Shown here: one piece after another, positions 17,732-40,994 of the stretch
Numbering within the stretch: position 1 is the stretch's first letter
How the letters are laid out: each line of letters starts with the position of its first letter
Source: Methanofollis sp. W23
Lineage (GTDB): Archaea > Halobacteriota > Methanomicrobia > Methanomicrobiales > Methanofollaceae
Reading direction: 5' to 3'
Assembly: GCF_017875325.1 (NCBI RefSeq)
Contig: NZ_JAGGMN010000001.1
Coordinates: 1,302,001 to 1,366,000 of the forward strand
DNA length: 64,000 bases
Notes under the pieces: model-generated
Database searches by the model: none
Told to the model about the DNA's origin: nothing
The model's input: the letters and a program-made list of their open reading frames with translations, nothing else
Made by a program: the position numbers and the translations under genes

Positions 17732-17738
17732 GGCTGGT

Positions 17739-18539: not shown

Positions 18540-18581
18540 TTGTCATTCAACTCCTTTTTCAAATCCGGAAAAATTCATGTT

Positions 18582-18598: not shown

Positions 18599-21500
18599 TT
18601 ATTTTCTCCTGAGGACCAGGAGTGCACCGAGGGCGATGAGCGGCAGGCCCCAGAAGACCGGGGTCTTGGTCGGTGCGGTGGTCGGCACCGTCGTCTCATC
18701 TGCCGTCTGGTTCACCGGCATGGTCGGGGTCTCGACCGGGGCCTCGACTGCCGGCTGCGTCTCCTCAGGCTCTGCGGCCCCGCCCGTCATGGTGACGATG
18801 GCGAAGTACGAGAACCCTGGCGAGTCGGCGCGGTAGACTGCCCTGTCATTCTCCTCGCTGACAAGGGTGGTGTCGAGGTGCTTCCAGGCGCCGTCGACAT
18901 ACCTCAGCATGACCACGTCGCCTGCCTCGACATCATGACTCTCAAGCCAGGTCGATGGCACGGCGAACTCGAGGGTGATCCCGTCGAGCGCCGCAGGGTC
19001 GGCATGGTAGAGGGTGACCTCCTGGAGTTCATACACCTGGCCGTCAGGCATCTGGACGTCGTTTCCGAGATGGGCCTTCTTCACTGTGACCAGGAAGTCT
19101 GAAACTTCTTCGTAGGCGGTGACCGTGATCTTTTCGATCGCCGTCTCGCCTACCAGGAAGGTCTTCGTCTCGTCGGGCTTGAATGAAGCGGCAAAGGCGG
19201 AGACATCGGAGGAACCGCTGCTGGAGGAAGAAGTATGGCTGACCGGTTTTGGATCTGGTTTGGGTTCAGGTGCTGCACCGCCGACCGCGAAGTAGCAGAA
19301 TTTGTCGGTGGTTGCACTGAAGTACGCTCTTCCATTCTCCTCCTTGACATATGTGGTCGTGAGAGTCTGCCAGGCACCGTCGGTGTACCGCATCAACTTC
19401 ACATCGCCGGCCTTCATCCCGTGGTCACACAGCCAGCTGACCGGGAGGTCAAAGGTGATGACGGCCTCGTCGATGGTGTTCTCTGGGGCCGGGTAGACGA
19501 CATGGAGGTACTGGTAGATCCTCTCTGCCGGTGTGTCGATGTAGTTAGGGAGTTCTTCAGGGGTTCTGATCGCGAGTTTTCCATCTGTGATGTCACCGGC
19601 GGCCTTGATGGTGATCGCCGAGAACGCTCCCTCTTCAAGGTCGAGCGTCGTATTCTCACCGGCACCGATGTCACCGATGGCGACGACCTCGTCTTCCATG
19701 GTCGACGGGATGAAGGCGATCTTGACGACGCCCTTGATGGTGTCCATGCCGCTGACATTCTCGCCCACAAGCCTGAGCGGCCAATTTTCATCGTCACCGT
19801 CGAGATGCAGGCCGTTCAGCGAGTTTGCAAGGATGTAGTTGTCGCTGTACATCGCATCGCGGCTGTTGATGACTGTCTCTGAACCGTCGCGGCCGATGAT
19901 ATGGACATCATAGCCTTCTCTTGCAAGGTCGGCATTGAATGACTTACCAGTATGGAAGTTCTCGTCGTCGACATAGCCAAGGAGGAACCAGAGGGGCATA
20001 CCAGACCATTCTCTACCTTTCTTGTCGATATAGGACTTCTCATGGTTGGCGCCCATGGTGCAGGCAAGACCGCTCTCAAAGTAACCCTTGCTGATGGCCT
20101 TGTCTATGGCCCCTTCGAGCTGGAGGTTCCAGTCTGGTTCAGGCACGTCGTAGATCCTGATCTCTGAGACATATTTGGCCGAGAGACCGGCGCAGGACGG
20201 GAGGCCGGAGTTGTAGTGCCAGTACTTCTCGTCGATGCACTCGTGCATGTCCCACTGGCCGAAAATGCGGTCTTCGGGCGTGAAGAAGAGCCGATACCCG
20301 TCATTGTAGTCAGGGACATAGCCCTTCCCTCCGGAGTACCAGGCAAGGACGGCCTCGCCCTGCCGCTCATCCGGAGCATAGATGTTGTCGTAATGGAGGG
20401 TCGTCTCCCATCCGTCAGGGGCGGCGAAGGTGATCTCGGTGTCCGGGCCCATACCGCCAACAAGGTCGCAGAGGTCACGGACTGAGGTGCCCATCATCTG
20501 CTCTTCGATCTTGAAGTAACCATGAGGATAGGTCTCGTCCTGGTCCCATGGGTCGTTGGGTGGGAAGTTCAGGCCTTCATAGCGGTAATATGTCTCGCCA
20601 TCTCCATAGACCTTGAGGTTCTCCTTCATCCAGGTGTAGTCGACGGTTTTCTCGCCGATGACCGTCGTGCGATCTTCGGCGTACTTGACGATCCGCACCG
20701 TGGGGATCTCGGTCGGTTTCTGGAACTCGGTCAGTTCGATGCTTTTGATACTGGCAACACTTTGAGAGCCTTCGGTCAGTGCAGAACCGACCAACCTGAC
20801 TGGGTAACCGTTTTCGTTAGTCAGAGGGGTCCCGTTCAGTTTGTTGGCAATGATGAAATCGTTGTTCTTCGAGATCGCTTCGCTACTGAACTCCTTGCTG
20901 TAGTCCCCAGACCCGGTGACTATCACCGTGTAACCCTGTGCAGCAAGTTTTGTGTTAAATGCGCCAGAGCCATGGATGGTGTAGTCGTCGACCCATCCGC
21001 AGAGACTCCAGAGTGAGATACCCGACCATTCACGGTTCTTATTGTCAGTCCAGGTGACGGTGTGGTATGGACATGCCGCTGCCGCCTCAAACTCGCTCTG
21101 GGTGAAGGTATCGGTGATCTCACCCTTCAGAGTGAGGGTCCATTCGCCGGGTTTCGGGCCTCCCGGCAGGCCGACAAGTGAGATCTCACTGATGGTTCCG
21201 ACTTTCTGTTTCCCAGAGGTGACGTTCTTCCCTACCAGTTTGAGCGGGAAGTCTCCCTCTGCAAGCGGTTCTCCGTTGAGAGTGTTGGCCACGATATAGT
21301 TGGGACTCTTTGCGACGTCGGCGCTGTCGAAGGTTGCATTGAATCCGTCTGGCGCACTCACCTTCACAGTATAGCCATCTGCAGCGAGATTGTCATTGAA
21401 TGCATCCTGACCATGGACGATGTGGTCGTCGACCCATCCGGCGAAGTACCAGAGTGGAATGCCCTTCCACTCACCGTCCTCGTCGGTGTAGGTGACGCCG

Positions 21501-24272: not shown

Positions 24273-26522
24273 TCAAGAATTCTGCCTGATCAGTAGCGCC
24301 GCACCGGCGGCAGCCAGAGAGAGCGCCCATGCGGGCGAAGATTCCTGTGGGGAGGTAGGGGGGATGTCGTTTCCATCTGGTCCGCCTGCGGCCCCTTCCT
24401 GCGCGACCTGCACATCAGCGCCCGGCACACCGGCCACGGCAAAGAGGGAGAGCGTATCTGACGATGCCGAGAACTCCTGGTACCCGTCTCTCACGCTCCC
24501 TGCATCGGTGGCGAGTGCGGTCCAGGCGGTGCCGTCATGGCACATCAGAGCGACGTCACGAGCTTCGAGTTCCTGGTCCTCGATCCAGGAGAGGGGCACC
24601 CTGAACGTGACCGTAAGTGCGGTGGGATCGGCCCTCGCACCATTCAGGCCGATGTCGAGATAGCGATAGACCGGGGCATCAGGGGCCTGCACCGCACCGG
24701 CGGACTCCTGGTCATGCACTTCGAGATGGATAGGGGAACGCTGCTCAGGGAGGGTTGCCGAGACCTTCTTGACAACCTGGTTGTCGGTGATGAAGGCCCT
24801 GGTCATCGGTGCGGTCGAGGATGCGGCACCCGAGTCACTGCGGCCCGGGGGAGTGCCGGCGGTCGTGACCAGGACCGCGACCCTGCTCTCCAGCACCCCA
24901 CCGGTGGCGGCGTCCTTCGTCGCCCGCATCATTGCGGTGTTCTCTCTCGGGAAGAGCACCGGGAGGACGTCGAGGTCTGCCATTAAGAGCCTGCCGTCGG
25001 CGTGCAGGGCGTCAGTCCACTCGCGGTCATTGAACCCGAGGATCGAGGTCGGCCCGGTGCCCGCCACAAGCAGACGGGCGGCGGCCGTCTGGTCGAGGTC
25101 GAGGGGGTCGTCGAAGATGGCCTGGCTCATGGCGTCGTCCTCGAAGACTCCGCCTTCCTCATCGATGGCCAGGGCATCGCACCCGGCCACGACCTGCCAG
25201 GTGACCTCAGGGAGAGCCAGGTCTTCACGCACCACCAGGAGCGCCCCGCCGTCGAGGGTGCAGATGCCGTCACCATTCTCGACGGTGACAGAGGTATCAC
25301 CAGGCGTGATCTCTTCAAGGTTGAAGAGATAGGTCGCCGCCACCGCTGCGTCCTTCTTCCCTGCCCGGTCGGTGAAGGTCTTGTCAGGCGTGACCGTCGT
25401 CCCGTCGATCAAGACGGTCAGGTCGGGTTCAGTCCCGGTGCCGTCCTCTTTATTCTTTGCATCGCTCACGAAGAGATAGAGGACTGCGCTCTCGACAAAA
25501 CCTGTTTCATTTCCCGGGTTGAAGGTCAGGGTCGTCCGCTCTCCCGCACCCAGAACTCCACCGGTTCCGGTGACAGGGAGGAGAGAGACCGAGCCGTTCA
25601 GGTAGTTGCCGGGTGGAGCGGTTGTCTCTTTTCCAGAGAGACCTGAGGCATCTGTGGTCCCGTCGCTCCCTCCGTCAGGGGAGACATCGCCCGTGCCCGA
25701 CGGCGCCGTCCCGACAACCGAAAACCCGCTGCTCCCCGGACCTGAGACGCGGTTCGTCCATGAGATCCCGAGGCCCTGGTTGGACTGGTTGCACCAGCCA
25801 TAGGAGTTGAACGCAGCATAGGTGGGGAGGTTCTCGAACTCGTACTCCACCCTGACCGCACCGTCGTCTCTTAAATCGTTGAGCCGGGAATTTTCGCCGA
25901 GTGTCCCTGCATTGAGATCGATGAAGACGAGATGGAAGGGGTTTGAGCCGTCAGAGACGTCCTGGCCATAATAGATCGGGTATGCCCCTGGCTGGTTGTT
26001 CCCTGCGGGTTTCCAGGTTTGGGGGCTGTACACGATGTCTTCCTTCGTGATCGTCCCCTCGTACGACCCCTCGACGTACTCGACCTCATCTGCCGCAGGG
26101 GGCATGTTCAGGACCGTCGTCGGGGTCCACCGGTAACCGCTCGCCCTGATGTGGAGAGCGAAGTCGTCGGGGATGGTGCCGTTGACCGCGACCATCAGGA
26201 TCATGTCGTCGGTGAATCCTCTCCCCCCCGTGTTGGTGAGATAGAAGACACCCGACTGTTCTTCGGTGTTCGTCACCTGCCCGAACGGCTCATTCTCAGG
26301 GTCGGTGCTGATGTGGAGGGCGTTGAGCCCGCCGCCATCGAACTTGAAGTACTTGGTCAGCCCGTCGGAGAGCTGGAGGTCAAAGTGGTTGGACCCCGGC
26401 ATCGTGATCCCGCCTATGTCCTCGGCCGCGGCCGGGACGACACAGGCGATGAGAAGGGAGACCGCCAGCACCGTCAATACAAGAAGTGATCGTCCAAATT
26501 TTTTTCTGATATCATTCATCAT
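24273..26522 (-). CDS. Secreted surface protein with paired beta domains, DUF3344-like and PGF-pre-PGF-like domains
   Basis: A 749-residue surface protein. A signal peptide (about 1-33) is followed by a domain containing FDGGGLNALHIS and FYLTNTGGRG and ending near SGYRW (about 40-135). A second domain has EDIVYSPQTWKP, VRVEYEFENLPTYAAF and ISWTNRVSGPGSSGFSVVG (about 145-275). A DUF3344-like region (about 300-560) and a PGF-pre-PGF-like domain (about 575-700, VYRYLDIGLNG, then SLFAVAG) follow. The stalk and anchor are AWALSLAAAGAALLIRQ. The first two domains recur in the same order at 26659-31113 and in reversed order at 37444-38244. GGTGGGAAT precedes the ATG. It appears monocistronic. Confidence 0.8.
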   Translation of the reverse strand: MMNDIRKKFGRSLLVLTVLAVSLLIACVVPAAAEDIGGITMPGSNHFDLQLSDGLTKYFKFDGGGLNALHISTDPENEPFGQVTNTEEQSGVFYLTNTGGRGFTDDMILMVAVNGTIPDDFALHIRASGYRWTPTTVLNMPPAADEVEYVEGSYEGTITKEDIVYSPQTWKPAGNNQPGAYPIYYGQDVSDGSNPFHLVFIDLNAGTLGENSRLNDLRDDGAVRVEYEFENLPTYAAFNSYGWCNQSNQGLGISWTNRVSGPGSSGFSVVGTAPSGTGDVSPDGGSDGTTDASGLSGKETTAPPGNYLNGSVSLLPVTGTGGVLGAGERTTLTFNPGNETGFVESAVLYLFVSDAKNKEDGTGTEPDLTVLIDGTTVTPDKTFTDRAGKKDAAVAATYLFNLEEITPGDTSVTVENGDGICTLDGGALLVVREDLALPEVTWQVVAGCDALAIDEEGGVFEDDAMSQAIFDDPLDLDQTAAARLLVAGTGPTSILGFNDREWTDALHADGRLLMADLDVLPVLFPRENTAMMRATKDAATGGVLESRVAVLVTTAGTPPGRSDSGAASSTAPMTRAFITDNQVVKKVSATLPEQRSPIHLEVHDQESAGAVQAPDAPVYRYLDIGLNGARADPTALTVTFRVPLSWIEDQELEARDVALMCHDGTAWTALATDAGSVRDGYQEFSASSDTLSLFAVAGVPGADVQVAQEGAAGGPDGNDIPPTSPQESSPAWALSLAAAGAALLIRQNS

Positions 26523-26658: not shown

Positions 26659-29600
26659 TCAGTCCCTCTTCACGAGGAAAAGGGCGCCGATCGCGGCGAT
26701 GGAGAGGAACCAGGGGACCGGTGACTTCTGCGTCGTCGGCGCCGCCTTCGCCGGCACGGTCGTCTCTTCGACCGGTGCAGGTGTATCGGTCACGACCGGA
26801 GTCGGCGTCTCCGTCTCATCGGCCTGTCCGGTGGCAGAGGTGGTCTCGCCGCTCGCGATTGCGAAGTACGAGAACCCGGAGGCCTCGGCCGAGTACAGGG
26901 CCTGGCCGTTCTCTTCCTTCACGAACGTGGTCTTGAGCGGCTTCCACCCATCGTTCTCGTACCCGAGGAGAACGATCTTGCCGGTGGAGAGGTCGTGCTC
27001 CTTGAGCCAGGTCGTCGGCACCGCAAACTCAAGGGTCACCGTGTCGATGGCCGATGCATCGGTGTGGTAGAGGGCGGTCTCGATGAGTTGATAGGTCGGG
27101 CCCTCCGGCGCTGGCACGTCCTTCGTGAGAGACGCCTTCTGCACCGTCACCAAGAGGTCGTCGATCGCGTCATAGGCCTCGACCGTGATCCTCGTGATCG
27201 CTGTCTTGCTCACCGCAAAGGTCTGCGACTCCCCGGCAGGGATGGAGCCAGAGATCGCGGCGACGTTGGAACTTCCGCCACTGCTGGAAGAGGAAGAGTG
27301 CGATGCTGGCGGTGCTGCTGCATTTGTGACCGCAACAAGTCCAAAGTCACAGAGACCTTCCGGCGAATCGGCACAGAACCCATATCCATACTGATCATTC
27401 AGACCGGCACAGATAGTGTTCAGGACACTGCTGCGGCCATCTTCGCCGAGACGGAGGATCCTGACATTGCCGGGCCCACCGACTGCATCGACCCACGCCT
27501 TGCTCACATTCATGACGATCGTGGCATTGGCAATCTCCGCACCGTCTTCAAGCCCAGTCTTCTCGACATGAAGGAGAGAGGCGATGCCCCTGTTCTTCAG
27601 GCCCTGCTTGTTGAGAGTTCTGGTAAACGCCGATTCGACCCCTGCAGAGGGGTGGACACTGAGCGTGGCGGCGAGCACGGCATCCTCAGGAAGAGCAGTG
27701 AGGTTTACGACCATCGACCCGCCGACCAGGCCGGCTTCAGCGGACTCAAGGACGAGCTGCCGCGGGATCAGCGAGATGCCGGTGACGTTCCCGGTGATCT
27801 GCCCACCCGCCATGGTAGCACTGCCGTCGGTCATGAAAACCAGGGTGTAGGCACCCCGGTAGATCGTGACCTCACTCCCGTCGTCAGAGAGGGTGCTGTC
27901 CACAAGGGAGGTGTCGACGGCGATCTTCTTCCCCCCTTCACCGGCAGAGAACGTGCATCCCGGTACCTTCAGCGAGACCTTCCCGGACGCCGTGCCGTTC
28001 TCAGGCTGGGCTGATACAAGGTAGTTCTCCTTCGGCTTTACAAGCGGGCCGAATTGTTCGTTCACACCGTCGATCTGATAGACCTCGTCTCCGATCCCGT
28101 CGCCTTCCTTATCGACACCGGTGTAGGTGTCCCAATAGTTGCCGAGGCGGGCGGTGTAGGTGTTCCCTTCATAGGTGTAGGTGACTGGTTCGGGGGACAG
28201 CCAGACCTGCTTGACCTCGGCAGAGGTCGGGGTTGGGACGTTCACGAAATCGTTCAGATAGAAGACATTGTCCTTTGTCGTGGCTCCACCGAGGTAGAGC
28301 GCCCAGTACGTCGGGTTCGAAAAGACGTTCCCGACGAATACATTGTTGTAACCGCCGATCAGACCGACTGCTCTGGCGGATGCATTGATCACATTGCCGG
28401 TAAAGACGTTGTCACCGGTGTTCTGGAGATAGATCCCGTAGAAGGGAATATCGTCGATGGTGTTGTTCGTAAATCTGTTCTCAGCACCATCGATCCTGAT
28501 CCCGGTTGACGAGATGTGACAGAGGGTGTTTTCAGCAACAAGGTTGTCGGTGCACTCTCTCCCGATGTTGATCCCGGTCGCTCCACCGGTGAACGTGTTC
28601 CCACTCACGGTGAGCCCGGTGCATCCGTTCAGGATATAGGCCCCATAGTTGTTGTCGACGCCTTCGTTGCCGACGATCGTAGAGTCGGAGGTCCGTTCAC
28701 AGTGGACGCCGAAGGCGTTCTTGACAAAGGTGTTGTCGCGGACGACGCAACCGGAACACCCGTCGAAGAAGAGCGCGTTCCAGTTATTCTTGATGATGTT
28801 GCCTGAGAATGTGACTCCTTCAACGTCTTTCACCAGGACCGCAAGGCCCCTGTAGGACTGCGAACTGCCGGTGATGGTGAGGTCTGAGATGGTGACGTCT
28901 TTGGTGGTGATCAGCAAAACTTTTGCAGTCGGATCCGGGGCATTGAGAATGGTCTTCTCAGGGCCGTTCTCTGATCTGATGGTCAGACATTTGTCGACCG
29001 TCACGGTCTCGTTGTAGGTTCCGTCCCTCACAACGATGGTATCCCAGTCATAGGCCGCGGTGACCGCGTCCTGGATAGTCGTGTAGTCGCCACTGCCGGA
29101 GGCGTCGATATACAGGGTTGCGGGTTCATGACCTGCCGGCACAACCCGTACCGCCGCCGTGCCGGTGGCACCGGCATATGTTGCCGTGACATTGAGCGAC
29201 CCGCCTGCGACGGCAGTGAAGAGTCCGTTCTCATCGATGGTGCCGAGGCTCTCGTCGTCGGTCGACCAGGCAAATGGCGTGTCCGGGATTGCGTTGCCGT
29301 ACTGGTCGAAGGTCTCTGCACTGAACGTCGCGGTCTCACCGACCTTCAACACCGCCTCAGAGGGGGTGACTCTGATCTCGGAGGGTTTGGGGAGAGAGAG
29401 TTCGATTTCGGTGAGGGCGGAGATCTCGCGCGATCCGCCGAGGAACTTCAGGGGCCAGTAGACTTCCCTGCCAAACGTGCCGGGCCTGATCTCCTGGCCG
29501 TTCATGGTGTTGGCAACGACCATCTGCTTCTCACCGATCAGGTCGGTGCTCGGGATCTCCAGGGTGAAGGGACGACTGCGCCGTTCGCCCTTGACAATGA

Positions 29601-31113
29601 TCGTATAGCCCTTCTCTGCGAGGGCGGTGTTGAGCGTGGCTGGGTCGTCGTCATCGACCATTCCGACAAGCACCCTGAGGTCAACGCCACCCCAGGTGTT
29701 GGAGGAGTAGTCGGTGTACTCTGCAGGATGCTCGTTTGCAAGGTCGATGAATCCAGACCTGCTGACATTCTTCTCTTCGGCACCGCTGAGGTCGAACGAC
29801 CAGTCCGGCGGCGTCTCGACGGGGATCTCGACTGTTCCGTTTACTGCACCGTTTTCCGCAGTGATCGTCGTGGTGCCGGCAACCAGGGCCTCGAAGCACC
29901 CGGTCTCATTCACGGTACCGACCGTCTCGTTGCTGCTCGACCATGCGAAGGTGATGCCAGGCATCTCATTGCCTTCCTGGTCATAGGCGGTGGCGGTGAA
30001 CTGGTGTCCCTCGCCGGGGTACAGGACCTGTTCCGGTGCTGCAGAAACCTCGATGGTGGTCAGTTCCTGGGGAAGAGCCGTGACCGTGACCGCCGCGCTT
30101 CCTTCGACATCACCGCTCACAGCAAAGACTGTCGTCGTTCCTGAGGAGAGAGCCTCAAAATATCCAGTCTCATTGACTGTGCCGACCGTCTCATTACTGC
30201 TCGACCATGCAAAGGCGACCTCAGGCATCTCATTCCCGTCCTGGTCATAGCCCATTGCGGTGAAAGTCTGGTTCTCGTTGACGAGGAGGGTGGCAGTCTC
30301 GGGAGAGACAGTGATGGTAGTCAGCGTCGGTTCCGTCGGGGCAGGCACTCCGATGACGCTATATCCACTGCTCCCTGATCCGGCCACACGGTTCGTCCAG
30401 GAGATGCCTTCATCCTGGTTGGAAGCTTTGCAGTAGCCGTAGTTGTCAAAAGCCGCAAAGGTCTCCAGGTTCTCGAATGAGTAGTCAATCCTGACTGCAC
30501 CGAGGTCTGTCGTGTTTTCATCACCATAGAACTGCCCGAGGCAGAGGTCAATGAACATGAAATTGAAGGTGTTCTCAGTATCAGTCATGTCCTGGCCATA
30601 GAAGAAGGGATAGTCAGGCTGAGTGGATGGCCTCCAGATCTGCGGGCCATAGATGAAGTCTTCTTTGCCGAAGGATTCGTCAACAGCTCCTGCGACATAC
30701 TCCTTGTCATCTATAGAACCAGGTTCCCACCTGTATCCACTGGACTTGATATGGACAGCAAAGTCGTCAGGAATGGTCCCATTCACTGCAAGCAGCAGGA
30801 TGACTTCGTCATTATAGCCTCTGCCACCGGTGTTCGTGAGGTAGAAGGTGCCGGACTGGTCAGACGAGATCGTGACCTGACCACCTCTGACTGAAGCGTC
30901 ATTGGTGATGTGCATGGCATTCAGGCCCCCGCCATCACATTTGACATAGTAGGTGTCGTTCCCGAAGGTGTTAAATCGTGCATTTCCGTCGTTTGATACC
31001 TGCACATGGATGTGCCGGTAGTCGGTCAGCGGTTCGGCCGCTGCCGGTGTGATGACAAGAGTTAGCAGGAGGAGGAGCATCGCTGCAGCGATGACCATTC
31101 CCACTAACCTCAT
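26659..31113 (-). CDS. Giant surface protein with Ig-like, SUOX-fold-like and NosD beta-helix domains
   Basis: A 1484-residue secreted protein. A signal peptide is followed by the paired GGGLNAMHIT and EDFIYGPQIWRP domains (about 25-270). Next come two BIG2-type Ig-like domains (each with AFAWSSSNETVGTVNETG or a close variant), one SUOX-fold-like repeat with VGMVDDDDPATLN, and a third Ig-like domain. A NosD/CASH parallel beta-helix (about 660-1050; many NxFxxN turns) follows, with two PGF-pre-PGF-like domains and a Pro/Thr stalk ending in WFLSIAAIGALFLVKR. The frame is open to an ATG at 31182. I prefer 31113 because it begins a canonical signal peptide and fits the TATA box at 31208. The composition suggests adhesion or carbohydrate binding outside the cell. 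Confidence 0.8.
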   Translation of the reverse strand: MRLVGMVIAAAMLLLLLTLVITPAAAEPLTDYRHIHVQVSNDGNARFNTFGNDTYYVKCDGGGLNAMHITNDASVRGGQVTISSDQSGTFYLTNTGGRGYNDEVILLLAVNGTIPDDFAVHIKSSGYRWEPGSIDDKEYVAGAVDESFGKEDFIYGPQIWRPSTQPDYPFFYGQDMTDTENTFNFMFIDLCLGQFYGDENTTDLGAVRIDYSFENLETFAAFDNYGYCKASNQDEGISWTNRVAGSGSSGYSVIGVPAPTEPTLTTITVSPETATLLVNENQTFTAMGYDQDGNEMPEVAFAWSSSNETVGTVNETGYFEALSSGTTTVFAVSGDVEGSAAVTVTALPQELTTIEVSAAPEQVLYPGEGHQFTATAYDQEGNEMPGITFAWSSSNETVGTVNETGCFEALVAGTTTITAENGAVNGTVEIPVETPPDWSFDLSGAEEKNVSRSGFIDLANEHPAEYTDYSSNTWGGVDLRVLVGMVDDDDPATLNTALAEKGYTIIVKGERRSRPFTLEIPSTDLIGEKQMVVANTMNGQEIRPGTFGREVYWPLKFLGGSREISALTEIELSLPKPSEIRVTPSEAVLKVGETATFSAETFDQYGNAIPDTPFAWSTDDESLGTIDENGLFTAVAGGSLNVTATYAGATGTAAVRVVPAGHEPATLYIDASGSGDYTTIQDAVTAAYDWDTIVVRDGTYNETVTVDKCLTIRSENGPEKTILNAPDPTAKVLLITTKDVTISDLTITGSSQSYRGLAVLVKDVEGVTFSGNIIKNNWNALFFDGCSGCVVRDNTFVKNAFGVHCERTSDSTIVGNEGVDNNYGAYILNGCTGLTVSGNTFTGGATGINIGRECTDNLVAENTLCHISSTGIRIDGAENRFTNNTIDDIPFYGIYLQNTGDNVFTGNVINASARAVGLIGGYNNVFVGNVFSNPTYWALYLGGATTKDNVFYLNDFVNVPTPTSAEVKQVWLSPEPVTYTYEGNTYTARLGNYWDTYTGVDKEGDGIGDEVYQIDGVNEQFGPLVKPKENYLVSAQPENGTASGKVSLKVPGCTFSAGEGGKKIAVDTSLVDSTLSDDGSEVTIYRGAYTLVFMTDGSATMAGGQITGNVTGISLIPRQLVLESAEAGLVGGSMVVNLTALPEDAVLAATLSVHPSAGVESAFTRTLNKQGLKNRGIASLLHVEKTGLEDGAEIANATIVMNVSKAWVDAVGGPGNVRILRLGEDGRSSVLNTICAGLNDQYGYGFCADSPEGLCDFGLVAVTNAAAPPASHSSSSSSGGSSNVAAISGSIPAGESQTFAVSKTAITRITVEAYDAIDDLLVTVQKASLTKDVPAPEGPTYQLIETALYHTDASAIDTVTLEFAVPTTWLKEHDLSTGKIVLLGYENDGWKPLKTTFVKEENGQALYSAEASGFSYFAIASGETTSATGQADETETPTPVVTDTPAPVEETTVPAKAAPTTQKSPVPWFLSIAAIGALFLVKRD

Positions 31114-31207
31114 GGATTTTCGTTGATCATCAAACAAGTAAATCGCTCCATATATCAGATTAAACAATAAAATGAGCAACAATAATGCCAGATATGGCAG
31201 AATGTCC

Positions 31208-32343: not shown

Positions 32344-33339
32344 GTGCAGAATAACACAATACAGACAGAAGAAGGAACCGCACAGATACAGGAATGCAGA
32401 GACGCCCTCATACAGGTAAAAAAGGAGATGCAACAGGTGATCGTCGGGCAGGAGGAGACGATCAGAGACCTCCTCACCGCCCTCGTCGCGGGGGGCAACG
32501 TCCTCCTCGAAGGAGTGCCGGGCCTGGCAAAGACCCTCACCGTCCGGACACTCGCCGCCTGCACCGCCTGCTCATTCGCGCGCATCCAGTTCACCCCTGA
32601 CCTCCTCCCCTCGGACATCACCGGCACGACCGTCTACCGCCAGCACGACGGCGTCTTCTCCCTGGTGAAAGGACCGGTCTTCCACCACATCGTGCTGGCA
32701 GACGAGATCAACCGCGCCCCGCCGAAGGTCCAGTCGGCCCTCCTCGAGGCGATGCAGGAGCGGCAGGTCACCATCCAGGGTGAGACCTGCGCCCTGCCCG
32801 ATCCCTTCTTCGTCCTGGCCACCCAGAACCCGATCGAGTCCGAAGGGACCTACCCCCTCCCCGAGGCCCAGACCGACCGCTTCCTCTTCAAACTCATCAT
32901 GGACTATCCAGGAGTGGAGGACGAGGTCGAGATCCTCGACCGGTTTGCCGCCAGGACCGAGGTCGCCCCCGCCTGCATCCTCGGCGTTCCTGAACTCAAG
33001 ACGATCCAGGCCACCGCGCGCGCCGTCCGCGCCGACCCGGCGGTGCGAGAATACGCCGCCAGGATCGTGGACGCCACCCGACACCCGGACAGGTATGCCC
33101 TCGAGAGCGGGGAGTACATCGAGTGGGGCGCCTCGCCGCGTGCCACCCTCTCGCTGGTGCTGGGGGCCAAGGCCCGCGCCCTCCTGGAGGGGCGTGCCTA
33201 CATTGTCCCCCACGACATCAAGGCCGTCGCCCACAATGCCCTGCGCCACCGCATCCTCCTCACCTACACCGCAGACGCCTGCGGGATCAGGAGTGATGCG
33301 ATCATCGACGAGGTGCTCGGCGTCGTCGAGGTGCCATGA
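32344..33339 (+). CDS. MoxR-type AAA+ ATPase
   Basis: A 331-residue AAA+ ATPase of the MoxR family, acting as a chaperone-like partner of VWA proteins. Walker A is GVPGLAKT (about residues 59-66), Walker B is IVLADEINRA, and sensor 1 lies around FFVLATQNPIESEGTYPLPEAQ-type sequence. The C-terminal lid region IEWGASPRATLSLVLGAKA is typical. The frame begins with GTG at 32344; there is no ATG upstream, and the next ATG would cut into the ATPase N-terminal helix. Its stop overlaps the DUF58 start as ATGA. It is the first gene of a four-gene operon. Confidence 0.9.
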   Translation: MQNNTIQTEEGTAQIQECRDALIQVKKEMQQVIVGQEETIRDLLTALVAGGNVLLEGVPGLAKTLTVRTLAACTACSFARIQFTPDLLPSDITGTTVYRQHDGVFSLVKGPVFHHIVLADEINRAPPKVQSALLEAMQERQVTIQGETCALPDPFFVLATQNPIESEGTYPLPEAQTDRFLFKLIMDYPGVEDEVEILDRFAARTEVAPACILGVPELKTIQATARAVRADPAVREYAARIVDATRHPDRYALESGEYIEWGASPRATLSLVLGAKARALLEGRAYIVPHDIKAVAHNALRHRILLTYTADACGIRSDAIIDEVLGVVEVP

Positions 33340-34202
33340 TGGAGACAGTCGCCGACCTGATCGCACGGGTGAGACCGGTGCCGCTGATGGCCCTCCTCGA
33401 GGCCGGCGGCACCTTTGCGGGCGGGCACCGCTCCCCCCTCATCGGACAGGGGATCGAGTTTGCCGGGATCAGGGCCTATGTCCCGGGCGACGACGTCCGC
33501 GCCATCGACTGGAAGGTCACCGCCCGTCGTGCGGATCCATATGTGAGGGTCTTCACCGAAGACCGGGAGATGAGCCTGTACATCGCCGTCGACTGCTCGG
33601 CCTCAGGAGGTTATGCCGGGGCCGGGCAGAAAGACCGGACGATCATCGACGCGGCCGCGGCCCTCGTCCTCGGCGCCGAGTCGTGCGGCGACCGGGTGGG
33701 GCTCTGCCTCTTCTCCGACAAGATGGAAAACCTCATCCCGGCACGCCGGGGACGGCGACATGTGGCCGTCCTCCTCTCCGCCCTGCGTGCGCGGATGCCC
33801 TTCACCGGCCGCACCGACCTCCAGGCCGCGCTTGGCGCCCTTGCCCCGTCCCTTCCCCCCCTGAGCACCGTCCTCATCATCTCAGACTTTGCCTCCCCTC
33901 CTTTCATAAAGGCCCTGAAGGCACTCAGGGGGAAGCACCGGGTGGTGCTCCTCAGCGTCGCCGATCCCCATGAACAGGAACTTCCCGACCTCGGCCTCCT
34001 CTCTCTCGAAGACATCGAGAGCGGGGAACAGGTAATCGTCGACACCTCAGACCCGGCCGTCAGGCAGCGTTTCCGTGAGGCCTCGGTCGGACGCACACAC
34101 GACCTGGCCATGGCCGCCGGCGAGTGCATGACCCCGCTGATCCCACTCACGGCAGGGGACGACCTTGGTGAGGCGTTGATAAGAGCGCGGGGGTGGCACT
34201 GA
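33336..34202 (+). CDS. DUF58 domain protein
   Basis: A 288-residue protein with the DUF58 signature GIEFAGIRAYVPGDDVRAID followed by WKVTARR, and a VWA-like fold (YIAVDCSAS, then DRVGLCLFSD). DUF58 proteins accompany MoxR ATPases and are thought to help assemble or regulate membrane complexes. No membrane segment is seen. Translation is coupled on both sides: it starts in the ATGA overlap with moxR, and the next gene begins with GTG immediately after its TGA. Confidence 0.85.
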   Translation: MMETVADLIARVRPVPLMALLEAGGTFAGGHRSPLIGQGIEFAGIRAYVPGDDVRAIDWKVTARRADPYVRVFTEDREMSLYIAVDCSASGGYAGAGQKDRTIIDAAAALVLGAESCGDRVGLCLFSDKMENLIPARRGRRHVAVLLSALRARMPFTGRTDLQAALGALAPSLPPLSTVLIISDFASPPFIKALKALRGKHRVVLLSVADPHEQELPDLGLLSLEDIESGEQVIVDTSDPAVRQRFREASVGRTHDLAMAAGECMTPLIPLTAGDDLGEALIRARGWH

Positions 34203-35153
34203 GTGGCAGGGTTTTCTCATCCCCTCTGGCTCCTCGCTCTCCTCGGCCTGCCGGCCCTGTACCTTCTCTACCTCAGGGCAGAGAAGACACGGAAGAGAGA
34301 GGCCCTCCTCTTCTCAGGAGTGTCCACCGCTAAGGAGGCGATCGCGGATACGAAACCCTCAAGGCGGCCTCGGATCCTCTTCCTCCTCACCCTCCTCGCG
34401 ATCGCCCTCCTGATCACCGGCCTCGCCGCCCCCCACCTGCCACTGGAAGGGATGCATGAAGGGGTCTCAGTGGTGCTCGCGATCGATACCTCAGGAAGCA
34501 TGGCAGCGACCGACTACCCACCAGACCGTCTCTCGTCTGCAAAGTCAGCCGCAGAAAAACTGCTCGACGGACTGGAGCGCGAGGACTACGCCGGCGTCGT
34601 TACCTTCGAGAACGGTGCGATGAGCGCCGCCTATCTCTCGCCAGACCACGACCGCGTCGTCGGAAAACTCAGGGCCATCAAACTCAAGGACGGCCCCACC
34701 GCCCTCGGCGACGGCCTCGCCCTCGCCGTGGACATGGCCGACGCCATCCCGAACCGGAAAAAGATCGTGGTCCTCCTCTCAGACGGGATGAACAACGCAG
34801 GCATCATCTCCCCGACGCAGGCCGCCGGGTTTGCCGTGGAGCGGGGCGTGCAGGTCTACACCGTCGGCCTCGGGTCCTCTGGGCCGGTTGCTCTCGGGAC
34901 CGCAGAGGACGGCTCCACTCACTATGCCCGCCTCGACGAAAAGACACTCAGGGAAGTGGCGAGCACGACCGGCGGGATATATTTCAGGTCAGTCGACGGC
35001 GACACCCTCCAGGAGATCTATGCCGCCCTCCCTGACGAGATCGAGCGGGAACCCGAGGAGACCGATGTCGCCTGGGCCTTCTTCTTTACAGCCATCCTCG
35101 TTCTCCTTGCTGAATGCTGGCTGCGATATGGAAGGGGGAGGATCCTCCCATGA
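34203..35153 (+). CDS. VWA-domain membrane protein, BatA-like
   Basis: A 316-residue membrane protein. It has an N-terminal hydrophobic segment (about 5-25), a second TM (about 58-78), an exterior von Willebrand A domain with an intact MIDAS (AIDTSGSMAATD, then GPTALGDGL, then LLSDGMNN) and a C-terminal TM (about 290-308). This is the BatA/BatB layout of the Bacteroides aerotolerance-type operon. The start is GTG at 34203, directly after the DUF58 stop, and keeps the conserved FSHPLWLLALLGLPALYLL N-terminus. Confidence 0.85.
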   Translation: MAGFSHPLWLLALLGLPALYLLYLRAEKTRKREALLFSGVSTAKEAIADTKPSRRPRILFLLTLLAIALLITGLAAPHLPLEGMHEGVSVVLAIDTSGSMAATDYPPDRLSSAKSAAEKLLDGLEREDYAGVVTFENGAMSAAYLSPDHDRVVGKLRAIKLKDGPTALGDGLALAVDMADAIPNRKKIVVLLSDGMNNAGIISPTQAAGFAVERGVQVYTVGLGSSGPVALGTAEDGSTHYARLDEKTLREVASTTGGIYFRSVDGDTLQEIYAALPDEIEREPEETDVAWAFFFTAILVLLAECWLRYGRGRILP

Positions 35154-36619
35154 CCAGGCGGTTCATCCTTGTCCTTCTCCTCCTCTTCGCCGTCGTGGCC
35201 TGCAGCGCCGAAGCGGCGGGGGAGGTCACCCTCTCAGCCCCGCAGAGCGATTACGTCTTCCAGATCGGGGAGACCGGAGAGATCACGCTCGACGTCGCCA
35301 GTTCCTTCGGGGCCGAGGTGCCTGGCACCCTCACCGTGGCACTGAGACCGACCGATGGAACAGTCGGTGCCGGACGGAACCAGGTACGGAGCATCAAGGT
35401 CGGGAGCGGGGAACGCACCCTCGCCGTTACGCTCGGCACCTCTGAGATCCCCGCGACCTTCGGGCTCGCGGTCACCTTCGAGTACGAGGGGAAGGCGGCG
35501 CACCTCTCAGGGGTGACCGTCCGCTTTGTCGAGGAGATCACTGATGAAGAGACCCAGTCCGAGCAGGAAGCCAGGGTGACTTCGGTCGAGACATCGGCGG
35601 CGCAGTCGCAGGAAGGGACCGGCGGCAGCCAGAACACCGCCTCGACCGCCGACCGGATGGTCCAGGCCGGTCAGATGCCGCAGGACGCCGACGCCCTCAG
35701 GGCCGGGATGGCAGAGGAGGACCAGCAGATCAGGGAAGCACAGGACGACCTCCTCGCCAGGGTGATGGCCGACCCCGTAGTCCTGCGCCTTGACCACCGG
35801 TTGAAGATCGACGGCTTCGAGCAGGCCGGGCAGGAGGGCGAGCCTGAGAGTGGGGAGTTTACGCTCACCTATCTGCGGGGCGAAGGTGAAGAGGCCAGGA
35901 TCGACGGTGTGATGGCCGACGACCTCGCCTATGCCTGCCTGACCTCGGCCTCTCCCCTCCAGATCCCCGGCCTTGTGGCCGGGAACCAGACCTTCCAGGA
36001 GTACGCCGGTCAGGTGACCGGGGAGGGACTTGCCCGCGGCAGGACGGTCATGAACCTCACCCCAGAGGAACAGTTTTATTCCTTCTCGTACGGCGATGGG
36101 ACCGCAGAGATTCATGTCACGCTCTTCGGGGGAGCGGTCAGAGAGGTCACCCTCGACTGGCAGATGAACTGGCTCCCGCTCATCGGGCTGATGGCCGGAT
36201 GCATCCTCCTGCTGGCAGCGGCCTACACAGCCTCCAGGCGGCGGCACGAGAAGACTCCGTCTCCCCTCCCTCCAGAAGAAGAGAAGCCCACGCCGCCCCC
36301 CGGACCCTCCCCTCTCGCCCTCCTTGCCAGGGCCGAGGCCGACTATGAAGCCGGCGAGGAGGTGCAGGCCTACCGGGGGGCGGCGCGGGCCCTCAGGGAG
36401 CAGGTCTCCATGACCCATGGCGCAGGCACCGAACTCACCGACGAAGAGACGATCGCCCTCCTCTCTGAGGCCGATCCCACGACGGCAACGGTCAGAGAGG
36501 CACTCTCAAAATGCAGCAGAGTTTCTTTTGGCGGGAGGTCTCCAGAAAAGACTGAATTCATATCGATTGTCAGGGTGATCAGGGAGATCATCACGAAAAA
36601 TAATGGAGAAGTTCAATGA
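35150..36619 (+). CDS. Bat-operon membrane protein with secreted beta-rich domain
   Basis: A 489-residue protein with a signal peptide (about 1-23), a long exterior region and one TM (about 342-362, LPLIGLMAGCILLLAAAYTA). The exterior part begins with a beta-rich domain reminiscent of BatD. The cytoplasmic tail has a Pro-rich linker and a helical domain (ALLARAEADYEAGEEVQAYR), probably contacting the MoxR/DUF58 partners. I chose the ATG at 35150 because it overlaps the preceding stop as ATGA and begins a clean signal peptide (MTRRFILVLLLLFAVVAC). It ends the operon. Assignment to BatD is by context rather than strong similarity. Confidence 0.65.
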   Translation: MTRRFILVLLLLFAVVACSAEAAGEVTLSAPQSDYVFQIGETGEITLDVASSFGAEVPGTLTVALRPTDGTVGAGRNQVRSIKVGSGERTLAVTLGTSEIPATFGLAVTFEYEGKAAHLSGVTVRFVEEITDEETQSEQEARVTSVETSAAQSQEGTGGSQNTASTADRMVQAGQMPQDADALRAGMAEEDQQIREAQDDLLARVMADPVVLRLDHRLKIDGFEQAGQEGEPESGEFTLTYLRGEGEEARIDGVMADDLAYACLTSASPLQIPGLVAGNQTFQEYAGQVTGEGLARGRTVMNLTPEEQFYSFSYGDGTAEIHVTLFGGAVREVTLDWQMNWLPLIGLMAGCILLLAAAYTASRRRHEKTPSPLPPEEEKPTPPPGPSPLALLARAEADYEAGEEVQAYRGAARALREQVSMTHGAGTELTDEETIALLSEADPTTATVREALSKCSRVSFGGRSPEKTEFISIVRVIREIITKNNGEVQ

Positions 36620-36737: not shown

Positions 36738-37442
36738 ATGACAGTCTACGTAGCCATGGACGACACCGACAACCTCACCTCCCGTGGGACCGGGAGACTC
36801 GCCAGAGCGGTTGCCGCGACCCTCTCCAGAGAATATAATGTCTACGGCGTCACACGCCACCAGCTCTTCGTCGACGACGCGATCCCCTATACCTCGCACA
36901 ACTCCTGTGCCGTCATCCACCTCCCCCATGCCGAGAAACAGGACGTCCCTGCGATCTTCGCGATCGCAGAGAAGTGCATGCTCGACGACTTTGTCGAGGG
37001 GAGCGACCCCGGACTTGCCGTCGCCTCTGCCAACCAGGTGACGCCTGCTCTCATCGCATTCGGGAAAGATGCCAAGGCGAATGTGCTCACGCAGGAGACG
37101 GCGCGAAACCTTGCACAGAACCTTGACATCATGCTCAAGGGACTCGGCGGAACCGAGGACGGGGTCATCGGGTCCATGGCAGGGATCGGGCTTGCCCGTG
37201 CCGGGAACGACGGGCGGTTCCTCCAGGTCGGGAAGATCAGGGAGATCACCGGCCTGTGCACCGCCGCCGAACTTTTCGAGGCCGGGATCGACGCGATCAT
37301 CACCCGGGACGGCCGGCAGATCACAGAGGGGGTCATCGAGGCCCCTGAAGGAAAATCAGTAAAGCCCTGCCCGATCGGCGGCTGGATCGTCCTCATCGTC
37401 GATGAACAGGACGGGCACCTCATCCCTGTGAAAAGAGATTAA
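36738..37442 (+). CDS. TiaS N-terminal-domain-like protein
   Basis: A 234-residue protein beginning MTVYVAMDDTDNLTSRGTGR, the double-aspartate motif of the kinase-like domain of tRNA(Ile2) agmatinylcytidine synthetase. It lacks the OB-fold and zinc-ribbon domains of TiaS (about 400 residues or more), so it is not that enzyme. Short relatives occur in methanogens with unassigned function. Further motifs include GSDPGLAVASANQVTPALIA and GVIGSMAGIGLARAGNDGRF. It is followed after one base by the secreted protein at 37444, so it may be part of the ECF transporter operon. Confidence 0.65.
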   Translation: MTVYVAMDDTDNLTSRGTGRLARAVAATLSREYNVYGVTRHQLFVDDAIPYTSHNSCAVIHLPHAEKQDVPAIFAIAEKCMLDDFVEGSDPGLAVASANQVTPALIAFGKDAKANVLTQETARNLAQNLDIMLKGLGGTEDGVIGSMAGIGLARAGNDGRFLQVGKIREITGLCTAAELFEAGIDAIITRDGRQITEGVIEAPEGKSVKPCPIGGWIVLIVDEQDGHLIPVKRD

Positions 37443-37443: not shown

Positions 37444-38244
37444 ATGGAATTTCGTACCAGAGTCGTCGTTGCCTTTGCGCTCCTCATCGCAATCGCAGCA
37501 GCGGCTCTGGCAGTCCAGTTCTCTGCCGAAGGGCTTTACGGCCCTGAGACCGGCCTCGAACCCCCGGTCAGTTCAGACATGACCTTCTCGCGGGCCGACT
37601 TCATCTACGGCCCGCAGGACTGGCGCCCGTACCTCATCCCCCTCTCCCTCAACACCCTCCCTGCCGCAGACGATACGAGAGAGTGGTACTTCATGTTTGT
37701 CAGGGTGAACGAGACCCCGCAGGGTGGAAACCCCGCCCTATACACCCTCCGCTCCGTCGCCGTCGACTACGCCTTCAACGACCTCTCAGGGACCGCGTCC
37801 TTCTACCTGTACGGGAAAAAATTCGGGAGCGGGAGGGCATGGACCAGCAGACAGGACGGTTATGGGTCCTCCGGCTTCCTCGTCACCGGGACAGCCGAGC
37901 CAGGCCGCGGGATGCCCCAGGCCTCCCCACTCAGGCACACCGGCGAGTGGGTAGAGATGAGGCTTGCCAATGTCCACGGCCTCGGGCCTGACGAGATCCC
38001 CACCTCAACCGTCTCTCTCTGGTTCCCGCAAAACAAAGTGGGGCAGGACGCCCTTCATATCACCACCGACCCTGCAGAGCGCAAGGGCCAGGTCACCACC
38101 GACGCCCCGACCTCAGGGCGTTTCTATATCACCCACACCGGGGGGAGCCGTGTCGGAGCTGTGTATCTCCTTGTCGCTGTGGACCAACCCCAGCCGGACT
38201 CCTTCTCGCTCAGGCTTCAGACCAGTACAGAGGCGGTATCATGA
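37444..38244 (+). CDS. Secreted two-domain protein linked to an ECF transporter (swapped domain order)
   Basis: A 266-residue exported protein with an N-terminal hydrophobic signal or anchor (about 6-24). The first domain has DFIYGPQDWRPY, VAVDYAFNDLSGTASFYLYG and QDGYGSSGFLVTG. The second has GQDALHITTDPAERKGQVTT and GRFYITHTGGSR. The same two domains occur in the large surface proteins at 24273 and 26659, but there the LHIT domain precedes the YGPQ domain. There is no C-terminal anchor. Its stop overlaps the start of the S component as ATGA, so a role as an exterior partner or ligand scavenger of the transporter is a reasonable inference. The ligand is unknown. Confidence 0.7.
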   Translation: MEFRTRVVVAFALLIAIAAAALAVQFSAEGLYGPETGLEPPVSSDMTFSRADFIYGPQDWRPYLIPLSLNTLPAADDTREWYFMFVRVNETPQGGNPALYTLRSVAVDYAFNDLSGTASFYLYGKKFGSGRAWTSRQDGYGSSGFLVTGTAEPGRGMPQASPLRHTGEWVEMRLANVHGLGPDEIPTSTVSLWFPQNKVGQDALHITTDPAERKGQVTTDAPTSGRFYITHTGGSRVGAVYLLVAVDQPQPDSFSLRLQTSTEAVS

Positions 38245-38792
38245 CCAGAAAAGAATCTTACTTCTCCCCCTATGAGATCGCAGTCCTCTCCCTCTGCGGC
38301 GCCCTTATCTTTGTCTCAAAAGTGCTGATCAAAGTCCCGCTTCACTCACCCGGCCACTCCTGTCTCTTTGTGGTGATCCCCTTCCTTGTCGGGTGCGGGG
38401 TGGTACGCAAACCTGGGGCCGCGACCTATATCGGACTGATCACCGGACTGCTCGCCTCATTTTTCGGGCTCGAAGCACTCCACCTCTTCGACGTCTTCAA
38501 GTATCTTGCCATGGGTCTGGTCATCGATGCCACCGCCCTGGTCTTCAACTTCAGGATGGACAACCCCGCCGTGGGATTCATCGCCGGCGCCGCGGGAAGT
38601 ATCGCAAAGATGGCAGTGAACTACAGCGTCCACCTTCTCCTCGGCGTCCCGGCCACTTTCATCGTCCTCGGGGTCGGCGTGGCCTCGGTGACTCATCTTG
38701 TCTTTGGCGGGATCGGGGGGGTGATCGGCGCCCTTGTCATCGCTCGTCTCATCAGGGCAGGGGTGATCGCGGGTGCGCCCTCCTCGACCTGA
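38241..38792 (+). CDS. ECF transporter S component, unknown substrate
   Basis: A 183-residue integral membrane protein with about five or six hydrophobic segments, typical of substrate-binding S subunits of energy-coupling-factor importers. It lacks the N-terminal histidine-containing MHI motif of CbiM, so it is not a standard cobalt subunit. The N-terminus SPYEIAVLSLCGALIFVSKV matches the helix-1 region that docks on the EcfT subunit. It lies in an unbroken run: ATGA overlap upstream and a 20-base overlap with the ATPase downstream. Substrate could be a vitamin, metal or methanogen cofactor precursor. Confidence 0.8.
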   Translation: MTRKESYFSPYEIAVLSLCGALIFVSKVLIKVPLHSPGHSCLFVVIPFLVGCGVVRKPGAATYIGLITGLLASFFGLEALHLFDVFKYLAMGLVIDATALVFNFRMDNPAVGFIAGAAGSIAKMAVNYSVHLLLGVPATFIVLGVGVASVTHLVFGGIGGVIGALVIARLIRAGVIAGAPSST

Positions 38793-40218
38793 CCCTGTCA
38801 TCGAGATCCAAGGCCTCTCATGCACCTACCCCATGTGGGGCACGGTCCTGAGAGACCTCGACCTCTCAGTCAGACCAGGGGAATTTATCCTCCTCACCGG
38901 TCCTTCTGGTGCGGGAAAGTCCACGCTTCTCAGGTGCATCAACGGGCTCTTCCAGCACGGGGATCTGGGTGAGGCCACAGGGAAGGTGCGGGTATGCGGG
39001 AAAGACCCTGGGGTCACCAGGGTCTGCGACCTTGCATGCCAGGTCGGCACCGTCTTCCAGGACCCCGACCACCAACTTTTCTCCAGCGATGTCGAGAGCG
39101 AGATCGCCTTCGGACTCGAACAACTCGGTATGGAACCTGCGCAGATGCGGGGACGAATCGAGGAGGCGGCCGAGGCCGTCGGGATCATGCATCTTCTCCA
39201 GAGAGAAGTGAACACCCTCTCCTGGGGAGAGAGACAACGGGTCGCCATCGCCTCGGTCGTTGCCATGCACCCGGTGGTCCTCCTCCTCGACGAACCGACC
39301 TCGGGGATCGACCAGAGTGGTGCCAGACACCTCGTCTCGGTCTTGAAGAGGTTGAACCAGGAGTCCGGGCTGACGGTCGTCGTCGCCGAGCACCGGTACG
39401 AACATTTTTCCAGGGTGTGCTCCAGGCTCATCTCGGTCCAGGACGGTGCGATCTCTTATGATGGGCCGCCGGTGAGGGCAGGCCTTGAGGCAGAGGTGCG
39501 TGAGCAGGGCGATGGGACTGAAGTAGAGACTCCTGACCGCCCCCCCATCCTCTCCTTTGAAGAGATCGTCTATACCTATCCTGGGGCCGCCCGCCCGGCT
39601 CTCAACGGCGCCACCCTCTCGGTCCACACCGGCGAGGTCGTCGTCCTCGCCGGCCCGAACGGGTCAGGGAAGAGCACCTTGCTCAGGCATGCGAACGGAC
39701 TTCTCACGCCAGACCAGGGGGTGGTCAGGATCAGGGGGGAGACGATCGCGGGGAAGTCGGTGGCCGAGATCGCCTCGACAGTCGGGTTCCTGGCGCAGCA
39801 TGCCGACACCCAACTCTTTGCCGAGACGATCGGGGACGAGATCGCCTTCGCACCAGAGAACCTTGGGTTTTCTCATGAGAAGAGGGAGGCCGCGGTCGCA
39901 CGGGTGATCGACATCCTGGGCCTGGAGCGGCTTGGCCGCCTGGCTTCTCCTCTCAACCTCTCGGTCGGCGAGAAACAGCGGGTGGCCATTGCAGGTATCC
40001 TTGCCATGGAGACGTCGGTGCTCGTCCTCGACGAACCCACGCTCGGCCTCGACCCTGCCCGCAAGGCAGGACTCGCGGAGGGGTTGCGTCGCCTTGCAAA
40101 GGAAGGGAAGGCGGTGCTCGTCACCACCCATGACCATGAGTTTGCCGCACTCCTCGGCGGGCGCGAGGTCATGATGCAGGACGGGCGGGTCGTCCCATCG
40201 GAGGGAGCGTGGGGATGA
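38773..40218 (+). CDS. ECF transporter ATPase, fused A1-A2
   Basis: A 481-residue protein with two complete ABC ATPase domains. The first has Walker A GPSGAGKST (43-51), a Q-loop and Walker B VVLLLDEPTSGID. The second has Walker A GPNGSGKST (near residue 295) and Walker B VLVLDEPTLGLD. Both signature motifs deviate from LSGGQ: LSWGERQR in the first and LSVGEKQR in the second. Fused ATPases occur in some archaeal ECF systems. The start is GTG at 38773, inside the S-component gene, and gives the usual short N-terminus before IEIQGLSCTYP. Its stop overlaps the EcfT start as ATGA. Confidence 0.9.
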   Translation: MRPPRPDPVIEIQGLSCTYPMWGTVLRDLDLSVRPGEFILLTGPSGAGKSTLLRCINGLFQHGDLGEATGKVRVCGKDPGVTRVCDLACQVGTVFQDPDHQLFSSDVESEIAFGLEQLGMEPAQMRGRIEEAAEAVGIMHLLQREVNTLSWGERQRVAIASVVAMHPVVLLLDEPTSGIDQSGARHLVSVLKRLNQESGLTVVVAEHRYEHFSRVCSRLISVQDGAISYDGPPVRAGLEAEVREQGDGTEVETPDRPPILSFEEIVYTYPGAARPALNGATLSVHTGEVVVLAGPNGSGKSTLLRHANGLLTPDQGVVRIRGETIAGKSVAEIASTVGFLAQHADTQLFAETIGDEIAFAPENLGFSHEKREAAVARVIDILGLERLGRLASPLNLSVGEKQRVAIAGILAMETSVLVLDEPTLGLDPARKAGLAEGLRRLAKEGKAVLVTTHDHEFAALLGGREVMMQDGRVVPSEGAWG

Positions 40219-40994
40219 AACGGGAGCGAGGGGTGCACTATCTCAAGGGGAGCACCTGGCTCCACCGCCTCGATCCCAGGACAAAACTTGTCGCTCTTGT
40301 CCTCCTCAGCATGGCGGCAATGGCGACCGAAGAACCCTTCCCCCTGCTTCTCGTCTTCGTGACCGTGCTTGCCGTCGCCGCGCTCTCGCACCTGACCCGC
40401 CCCTTCCTCTGGTCGTTGCGCCTCCTCGTCCCTGTCCTCCTCTGTATCTTCATCATCGATGCCTTCGTCCCACGGGTCGCCTGGGGCACGACCTACTTCT
40501 CGGCCGAGTTCCTGGTCTTCAATCTGGCCCTCTCCACTGGCGGAATCCTATTTTCAACAGCAATGTGCCTGCGTCTCCTCTCGGTCGGAGGGTTCTCGTT
40601 TCTTTTCATCATGACGACCGCCTTCTCCGATTTTGTCAGGAGCCTGCGGGCTTCCGGCCTCCCTAACACCCTGGCCTTCTCCTTAGGGTATGCTCTCAGG
40701 TCGGTCTCGGCCCTCACCGAGGATATCGGGAATATCATGGATGCCCAGCGTTCCAGGGCCCTTGAATTCGACAGAGAAAATCTCTTCAAAAATCGGCACA
40801 AGATCCTGGCTCTCGCCGTGCCGGCGACCATCTCGGTCCTCTCCAGGGCACGCCAGGTCTCAGAGGCGATGCAGTGCCGGGGCTTTGGGGCCTCTGCACG
40901 CCCGACCTGTTATCAGATGCAGCAGACCGGGTGGGAGGATGTCGCGCTGATCGTGTGCGTCTTCCTCGGCGCTGCGATATCCTTTCTGTTATGA
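40215..40994 (+). CDS. ECF transporter transmembrane coupling protein (EcfT/CbiQ family)
   Basis: A 259-residue membrane protein that couples the ATPases to the S component. The family start GSTWLHRLDPRTKLVALVLL is followed by several TMs, and the cytoplasmic coupling helices contain two alanine-arginine signature motifs: DAQRSRALEFD and the later EAMQCRGFGASARP. The ATG at 40215 overlaps the ATPase stop. It is the last gene of the probable operon starting at 36738 and is followed by repeat-rich DNA. Confidence 0.9.
   Translation: MKRERGVHYLKGSTWLHRLDPRTKLVALVLLSMAAMATEEPFPLLLVFVTVLAVAALSHLTRPFLWSLRLLVPVLLCIFIIDAFVPRVAWGTTYFSAEFLVFNLALSTGGILFSTAMCLRLLSVGGFSFLFIMTTAFSDFVRSLRASGLPNTLAFSLGYALRSVSALTEDIGNIMDAQRSRALEFDRENLFKNRHKILALAVPATISVLSRARQVSEAMQCRGFGASARPTCYQMQQTGWEDVALIVCVFLGAAISFLL

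Follow-up and report, generated by a model that had tools for sequence, protein, structure and literature searches.

Auxiliary parts have been described for the ECF importers of nickel and cobalt, among them CbiN, NikN and NikK/NikL, which are small extra membrane proteins encoded with, and co-occurring with, an ECF S component (PMC2667541). In Staphylococcus lugdunensis, the haem ECF importer LhaSTA lies inside the isd operon among genes for surface-anchored proteins; these are haem receptors, and the importer works without them (PMC7299338). A Methanoperedens plasmid carries DUF3344 genes beside Cbi and Ecf transporter genes (PMC9674854), and YkoEDC is a thiamine importer of Bacillus subtilis (PMC5037267). 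Here we describe an operon of the archaeon Methanofollis sp. W23, found in a 64,000-nucleotide stretch of DNA that was analysed as a whole (the window), in which a protein with surface-protein domains, YL, is encoded within an ECF importer operon. The operon and the cassette upstream of it comprise the following:

32344..36619, + strand: MoxR, DUF58, BatA/VWA and membrane protein cassette, four genes upstream of the operon (AAA_3, DUF58, BatA/VWA)
36738..37442, + strand: MM11L, first gene of the operon, a TiaS/TCKD-like kinase-type protein with a DDTD motif (weak similarity to methanogenesis marker 11 and TiaS)
37444..38244, + strand: YL, a protein of 266 aa with an ATG start, made of an N-terminal membrane anchor, a Y domain and an L domain
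38241..38792, + strand: EcfS, PF09819-type substrate-binding membrane subunit (PF09819, 28.6 bits, cutoff 25.2)
38773..40218, + strand: EcfAA', fused pair of ECF ATPases (TIGR04521 and TIGR04520 above cutoff)
40209..40994, + strand: EcfT, CbiQ family (PF02361, 96 bits)

An S component, a T component and two EcfA ATPases are thus encoded together, as in an ECF-type ABC transporter. The YL reading frame is real and conserved, with an orthologue 92% identical in a Methanofollis metagenome-assembled genome, and it is tightly packed against its neighbours: it starts 1 base beyond MM11L, and, as the initial annotation had stated, it overlaps the start of the S component, the two genes sharing the 4 bases ATGA at 38241-38244.

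How does this locus compare with the known systems? Like the nickel and cobalt auxiliary proteins, YL is a small extra membrane protein that accompanies an S component; it differs from them in having two surface-protein-type beta domains, and no sequence relation to them was found. YL and its 25 aligned orthologues matched none of the known auxiliary ECF subunit families in Pfam, and NCBIfam returned nothing for YL. The S component is also different, as CbiM and NikM carry an N-terminal MHIPDG-type start, which EcfS lacks. As with LhaSTA, the importer lies among genes for surface proteins, but here a protein with surface-protein domains is embedded in the ECF operon itself. The Methanoperedens locus and a group of Methanosarcina-type loci likewise have archaeal surface proteins beside ECF genes, with DUF3344 present there as in the window; neither has YL, and the S component of the Methanosarcina-type loci is fused instead to an Ig-like domain. 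These distant EcfS relatives, of 363 aa, consist of a signal, a weak NPCBM-associated (Ig-like) match and then the S component, which falls below the PF09819 cutoff; a fused ATPase and EcfT are encoded nearby, and four DUF3344 proteins surround them. One such S component, with an extracellular domain weakly matching NPCBM_assoc, is at L115:8059-9150, among four DUF3344 proteins. In the Methanosarcina-type fusion, an S component of this kind is joined to an outside domain independently of YL. Together with the Methanoperedens case, this makes the combination of such S components with extracellular domains and surface proteins wider than the YL family.

The association of YL with this importer is strict. 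Orthologues of YL (~265-275 aa) occur in 34 of 150 genomes of Methanomicrobiales, and this EcfS family occurs in the same 34 (Fisher P 2e-34, uncorrected for kinship). In most loci, the spacing between YL and EcfS is -7 to +5 bases, and in the neighbourhoods of 33 relatives the order MM11L-YL-EcfS-EcfAA' is kept wherever the contig reaches, with YL frameshifted in the draft L088. EcfT usually follows; four relatives (L072, L076, L078 and L088) have YL-EcfS-EcfAA' with no EcfT found next to it; in L072, L076 and L078, only about 400 bases separate the end of the operon at EcfAA' from the next gene. A genome of another order (G175, from a phylum-wide sample) also has YL and EcfS, adjacent to each other. 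The initial annotation had proposed that this gene links the surface-protein family with one ECF uptake system, and it had named the lack of conserved linkage in other genomes as grounds for rejection. The search of other genomes for YL beside ECF S components bears the proposal out: the two are found in the same 34 of 150 genomes and are adjacent in every locus.

Could YL be a small envelope protein that is simply inherited with a surface-protein island and that plays no part in transport? Surface proteins of the family that we call LY, described below, lie within 10 kb of nearly all YL loci of the 33 relatives, the MoxR-DUF58-BatA cassette is close to most of them, and the block as a whole seems to move together: the similarity matrices of the five operon proteins correlate (r 0.80-0.93), and in G009 (locus L065) each of the five has its nearest relatives in another genus, which suggests either block transfer of the operon or misclassification of the genome. 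It is because all five share these unexpected nearest relatives that we regard the operon proteins as moving together, and their matching divergence also speaks for the link between the surface-protein family and this one importer. Such passive inheritance would nevertheless be hard to square with the position of YL inside the operon, between MM11L and EcfS and with overlapping genes, and with the fact that YL, alone among the LY-type proteins, always accompanies EcfS. Moreover, the two are still together in G175, a genome in which no LY surface protein was detected, which argues that YL is independent of the LY surface proteins. We therefore consider a bystander role for YL unlikely. LY matches without YL were found in four genomes, among them the fragmented drafts G010 and G144; the G010 contig that bears MM11L breaks off within the MM11L gene. 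In G022, LY is present and the ECF operon is absent.

YL has the same two domains as the LY surface proteins of Methanomicrobiales (by BLAST, profiles and trees), and these domains stand in the opposite order. The features concerned are:

37456..37527, + strand: hydrophobic N-terminal segment of YL, probable uncleaved anchor (aa 5-28; helix 2-29 in the predicted model)
37573..37902, + strand: Y domain of YL, with YGPQxWRP (aa 44-153; profile match)
37942..38226, + strand: L domain of YL, with LHIT (aa 167-261; profile match)
24273..26522, - strand: surface protein with L-Y, DUF3344 and PGF-pre-PGF (L at 26357-26139, Y at 26057-25701)
26659..31182, - strand: surface protein with L-Y, Big_2, NosD helix and PGF-pre-PGF (L at 31017-30739, Y at 30681-30340)

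With domain profiles made from the YL orthologues (the frameshifted L088 copy excluded), L is found at aa 56-128 and Y at aa 156-274 of the protein encoded at 24273-26522, and L at aa 56-148 and Y at aa 168-281 of that encoded at 26659-31182. A BLAST search of YL against its own genome matched both surface proteins in two segments with their order reversed (E 1e-9 to 1e-11). The swapped domain order noticed in the initial annotation is thus confirmed, and it extends well beyond this genome. The ECF-linked copy is invariably Y-L, in 33 further Methanomicrobiales genomes and in the one of another order, and L never precedes Y in it; the surface proteins in the examined loci are L-Y, LYLY or LYLYLY, with one LLY. 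Since a Y-L junction also arises inside the tandem LYLY surface proteins, the swap is best described in terms of which domain leads. In a tree of Y domains, all those of YL proteins form one clade (support 100/99); the one row labelled LY inside this clade, from L088, is the frameshifted YL. The L-domain tree, built from a shorter domain, is less resolved, and it places the G175 copy among the surface copies. Because the Y-domain tree unites all YL copies, the most likely history is that the YL arrangement arose once and was then retained.

The LY module has varied company. It is joined to NosD, Big_2, PKD, PEGA, DUF3344, PQQ-like and dockerin parts. Many LY proteins begin with a signal peptide and carry a hydrophobic segment at the C terminus; several others are short and unanchored. 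Dockerin-like repeats end the LY proteins at L070:14683-15702, L082:3725-4780 and L073:3-1763; the L082 protein passes the cutoff of Pfam Dockerin_1, the L070 protein falls short of it, and the L073 repeats were recognized by eye only.

YL itself has a basic N terminus followed by one hydrophobic segment, and the chain stops directly after the L domain. By a motif count, which is a crude way of telling an anchor from a cleaved signal, a Pro..AxA cleavage pattern is present in 0 of 26 YL proteins and in 42 of 59 LY proteins; a looser AxA pattern is present in 11 of the 26 and in 55 of the 59. Because the Pro..AxA pattern is missing from YL and present in most LY proteins, these counts suggest that the N-terminal segment of YL is an uncleaved anchor, with the two domains outside the cell. 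The protein was initially labelled as secreted, which now seems doubtful.

What, then, do the Y and L domains do? It had been suggested that the two domains together bind the ligand that is transported, such that the surface proteins would collect the molecule and YL would hand it to EcfS. Domains shared by surface proteins and by the importer's neighbour, the strict linkage of YL to the ECF genes and the outward-facing placement of both proteins would all be in keeping with this idea, and a receptor relay like that of Isd and LhaSTA can be imagined. The details of the sequences point elsewhere. Of the 16 columns that are invariant in YL, most hold Gly, Pro, Thr, Val, Leu or an aromatic residue, so that conservation is mostly structural, and R61 and H205 are the only charged or potential-ligand residues among them. 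In the surface proteins, the attachment of LY to parts as disparate as NosD, PEGA, PKD, Big_2, PQQ-like and dockerin domains is what would be expected of a general attachment module on adhesin-like proteins, and G022 carries LY without the ECF operon. YL had no match in Pfam, NCBIfam or PDB, searches of Pfam and PDB with YL and its 25 aligned orthologues gave nothing usable, and none of the searches pointed to a ligand-binding family or fold. The AlphaFold models, which were built from shallow alignments, are mostly beta and of low confidence for both YL (pLDDT 57.5, pTM 0.62) and an LY protein (pLDDT 61, pTM 0.70); their best structural matches (a CorA copper protein with E 0.011, SdrG, PrgB, CfaE and integrin) are insignificant and were set aside as evidence. 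We thus found no support for ligand binding by the pair and consider it improbable. A docking or accessory role for the L and Y domains would fit these sequence features at least as well and is the simpler reading. Separately, 5 of 28 LY segments show weak similarity of the L domain to a part of the model for ArlG, the archaellum stator (E down to 0.008); at about 16 bits against a curated cutoff of 110, the L domain is not a member of that family.

Because YL is always encoded beside this ECF importer, it is probably an outside part of it. Our preferred reading, which we hold to be reasonably probable, is that YL serves one Methanomicrobiales ECF importer as a dedicated subunit, anchored in the membrane and extracytoplasmic. 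YL would be co-produced with EcfS through the overlapping genes, and its N-terminal helix would hold it in the membrane, Y lying close to the membrane and L farther out. It may sit on EcfS and couple the importer to LY proteins of the cell surface or to the S-layer, and it may present or guide the substrate, much as CbiN, NikN or NikK/NikL assist nickel and cobalt ECF importers; gene adjacency alone, of course, need not mean physical contact between YL and EcfS. A subunit of this kind would also make sense of the swapped domains. YL is anchored at its N terminus and many LY proteins at their C terminus, so L could be outermost in both arrangements, and the order may be swapped because the anchoring end differs; this argument extends only to those LY proteins with a membrane segment at the C terminus. 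How substrates pass through the archaeal S-layer and what the giant surface proteins of methanogens do are both poorly understood. If YL does dock on LY arrays, surface capture and import would be physically joined. A surface-domain protein strictly linked to an ECF S component offers a small complex that lends itself to testing.

Clues to the substrate come mainly from MM11L, whose DDTD motif is kept in 29 of 30 orthologues. Relatives of MM11L occur in many genomes without YL, and at 20 of 32 such loci MOT1, WtpA, TupA or MoeA is encoded within about 8 kb, as Pfam and NCBIfam confirmed for representative loci. In a tree, the YL-type MM11L proteins separate from the molybdenum/tungsten type, and most of the copies linked to molybdenum/tungsten genes belong to a sister subfamily; in G015 and G074, however, an MM11L without YL is nested in the YL-type clade and lies beside molybdenum/tungsten genes. 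The YL cluster itself is flanked by MoeA genes and a Tup/Wtp/MOT1 group in G012, G017 and G037, and in 6 of 11 genera WtpA is no more than 35 kb away from YL (binomial P about 6e-5, ignoring kinship between the genera). Molybdenum/tungsten genes lie within 10 kb of YL in only 2 of 34 relatives, and the presence of MOT1 was of no use in telling genomes that have YL from those that lack it. On balance, we propose only tentatively, at somewhat less than even chances, that the imported substrate belongs to molybdenum/tungsten metabolism. The fuller version of this proposal, a new ECF importer for molybdate, tungstate or a molybdenum/tungsten pterin in which YL docks on LY arrays and MM11L acts on the imported compound, would be rather unlikely. 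The genomic link between MM11L and molybdenum/tungsten genes nonetheless makes a role for this TiaS-like family, and a possible new class of ECF substrate, testable. As an aside, the MM11L genes of loci L149-L180 adjoin MOT1, Wtp, Tup, MoeA and an amino-acid-kinase-family protein, and they may represent a new molybdenum/tungsten gene family.

The operon could also encode a vitamin importer, with EcfS being a YkoE-type thiamine or pyrimidine transporter and the molybdenum/tungsten neighbours being incidental. EcfS passes the cutoff of PF09819, a Pfam family that we take to include the thiamine transporter YkoE, and EcfAA', as a fused ATPase, has the architecture of YkoEDC of Bacillus subtilis. 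The likeness does not go much further: although a YkoE structure has been published, the EcfS profile misses it and finds no match in PDB; nothing in the context points to thiamine; neither a thiamine riboswitch nor any other known RNA element was found near the operon (one sub-threshold SgrS match was ignored); and the kinase partner MM11L is tied to molybdenum/tungsten genes elsewhere. A vitamin as the substrate is therefore doubtful, though conceivable.

The surroundings of the operon include further genes of molybdenum/tungsten type, several of them in a run of surface-protein genes:

18599..24052, - strand: surface protein of 1817 aa with Oxidored_molyb-type domains (PF00174, 82 bits, 3 stretches), which starts a tight run to WtpA
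14696..17731, - strand: surface protein with DUF3344 and PEGA, in the same run
11997..12590, - strand: small lipoprotein-like protein with an Oxidored_molyb-type domain
11005..12030, - strand: WtpA, tungstate/molybdate-binding protein, last gene of the run (TIGR03730, 332 bits, cutoff 243)

This run (11005-24052, - strand) also encodes a purple-acid-phosphatase-like part, and its WtpA is an orphan without WtpB or WtpC; the run recurs, with gaps, in other Methanofollis and in G099, G052 and G100. We do not count the Oxidored_molyb domains of the surface proteins as cofactor binders because a consistent Cys ligand seems, by eye, to be absent from them. Two surface proteins of the full window carry DUF3344, which cannot be called a constant partner of YL, as only 4 of 34 loci have it no farther than 10 kb from YL (the window was counted over its full length). 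Another molybdenum/tungsten-related gene of the window is that for FdhD, the formate dehydrogenase sulfurtransferase (54924-55655, - strand; Pfam FdhD-NarQ). Finally, 41935-44846 (- strand) holds a nitrogenase-like trio, consisting of two short Oxidored_nitro proteins (366 and 393 aa) and a NifH/CfbC-type reductase, in which the CfbC model scores above its cutoff and the CfbD model far below.
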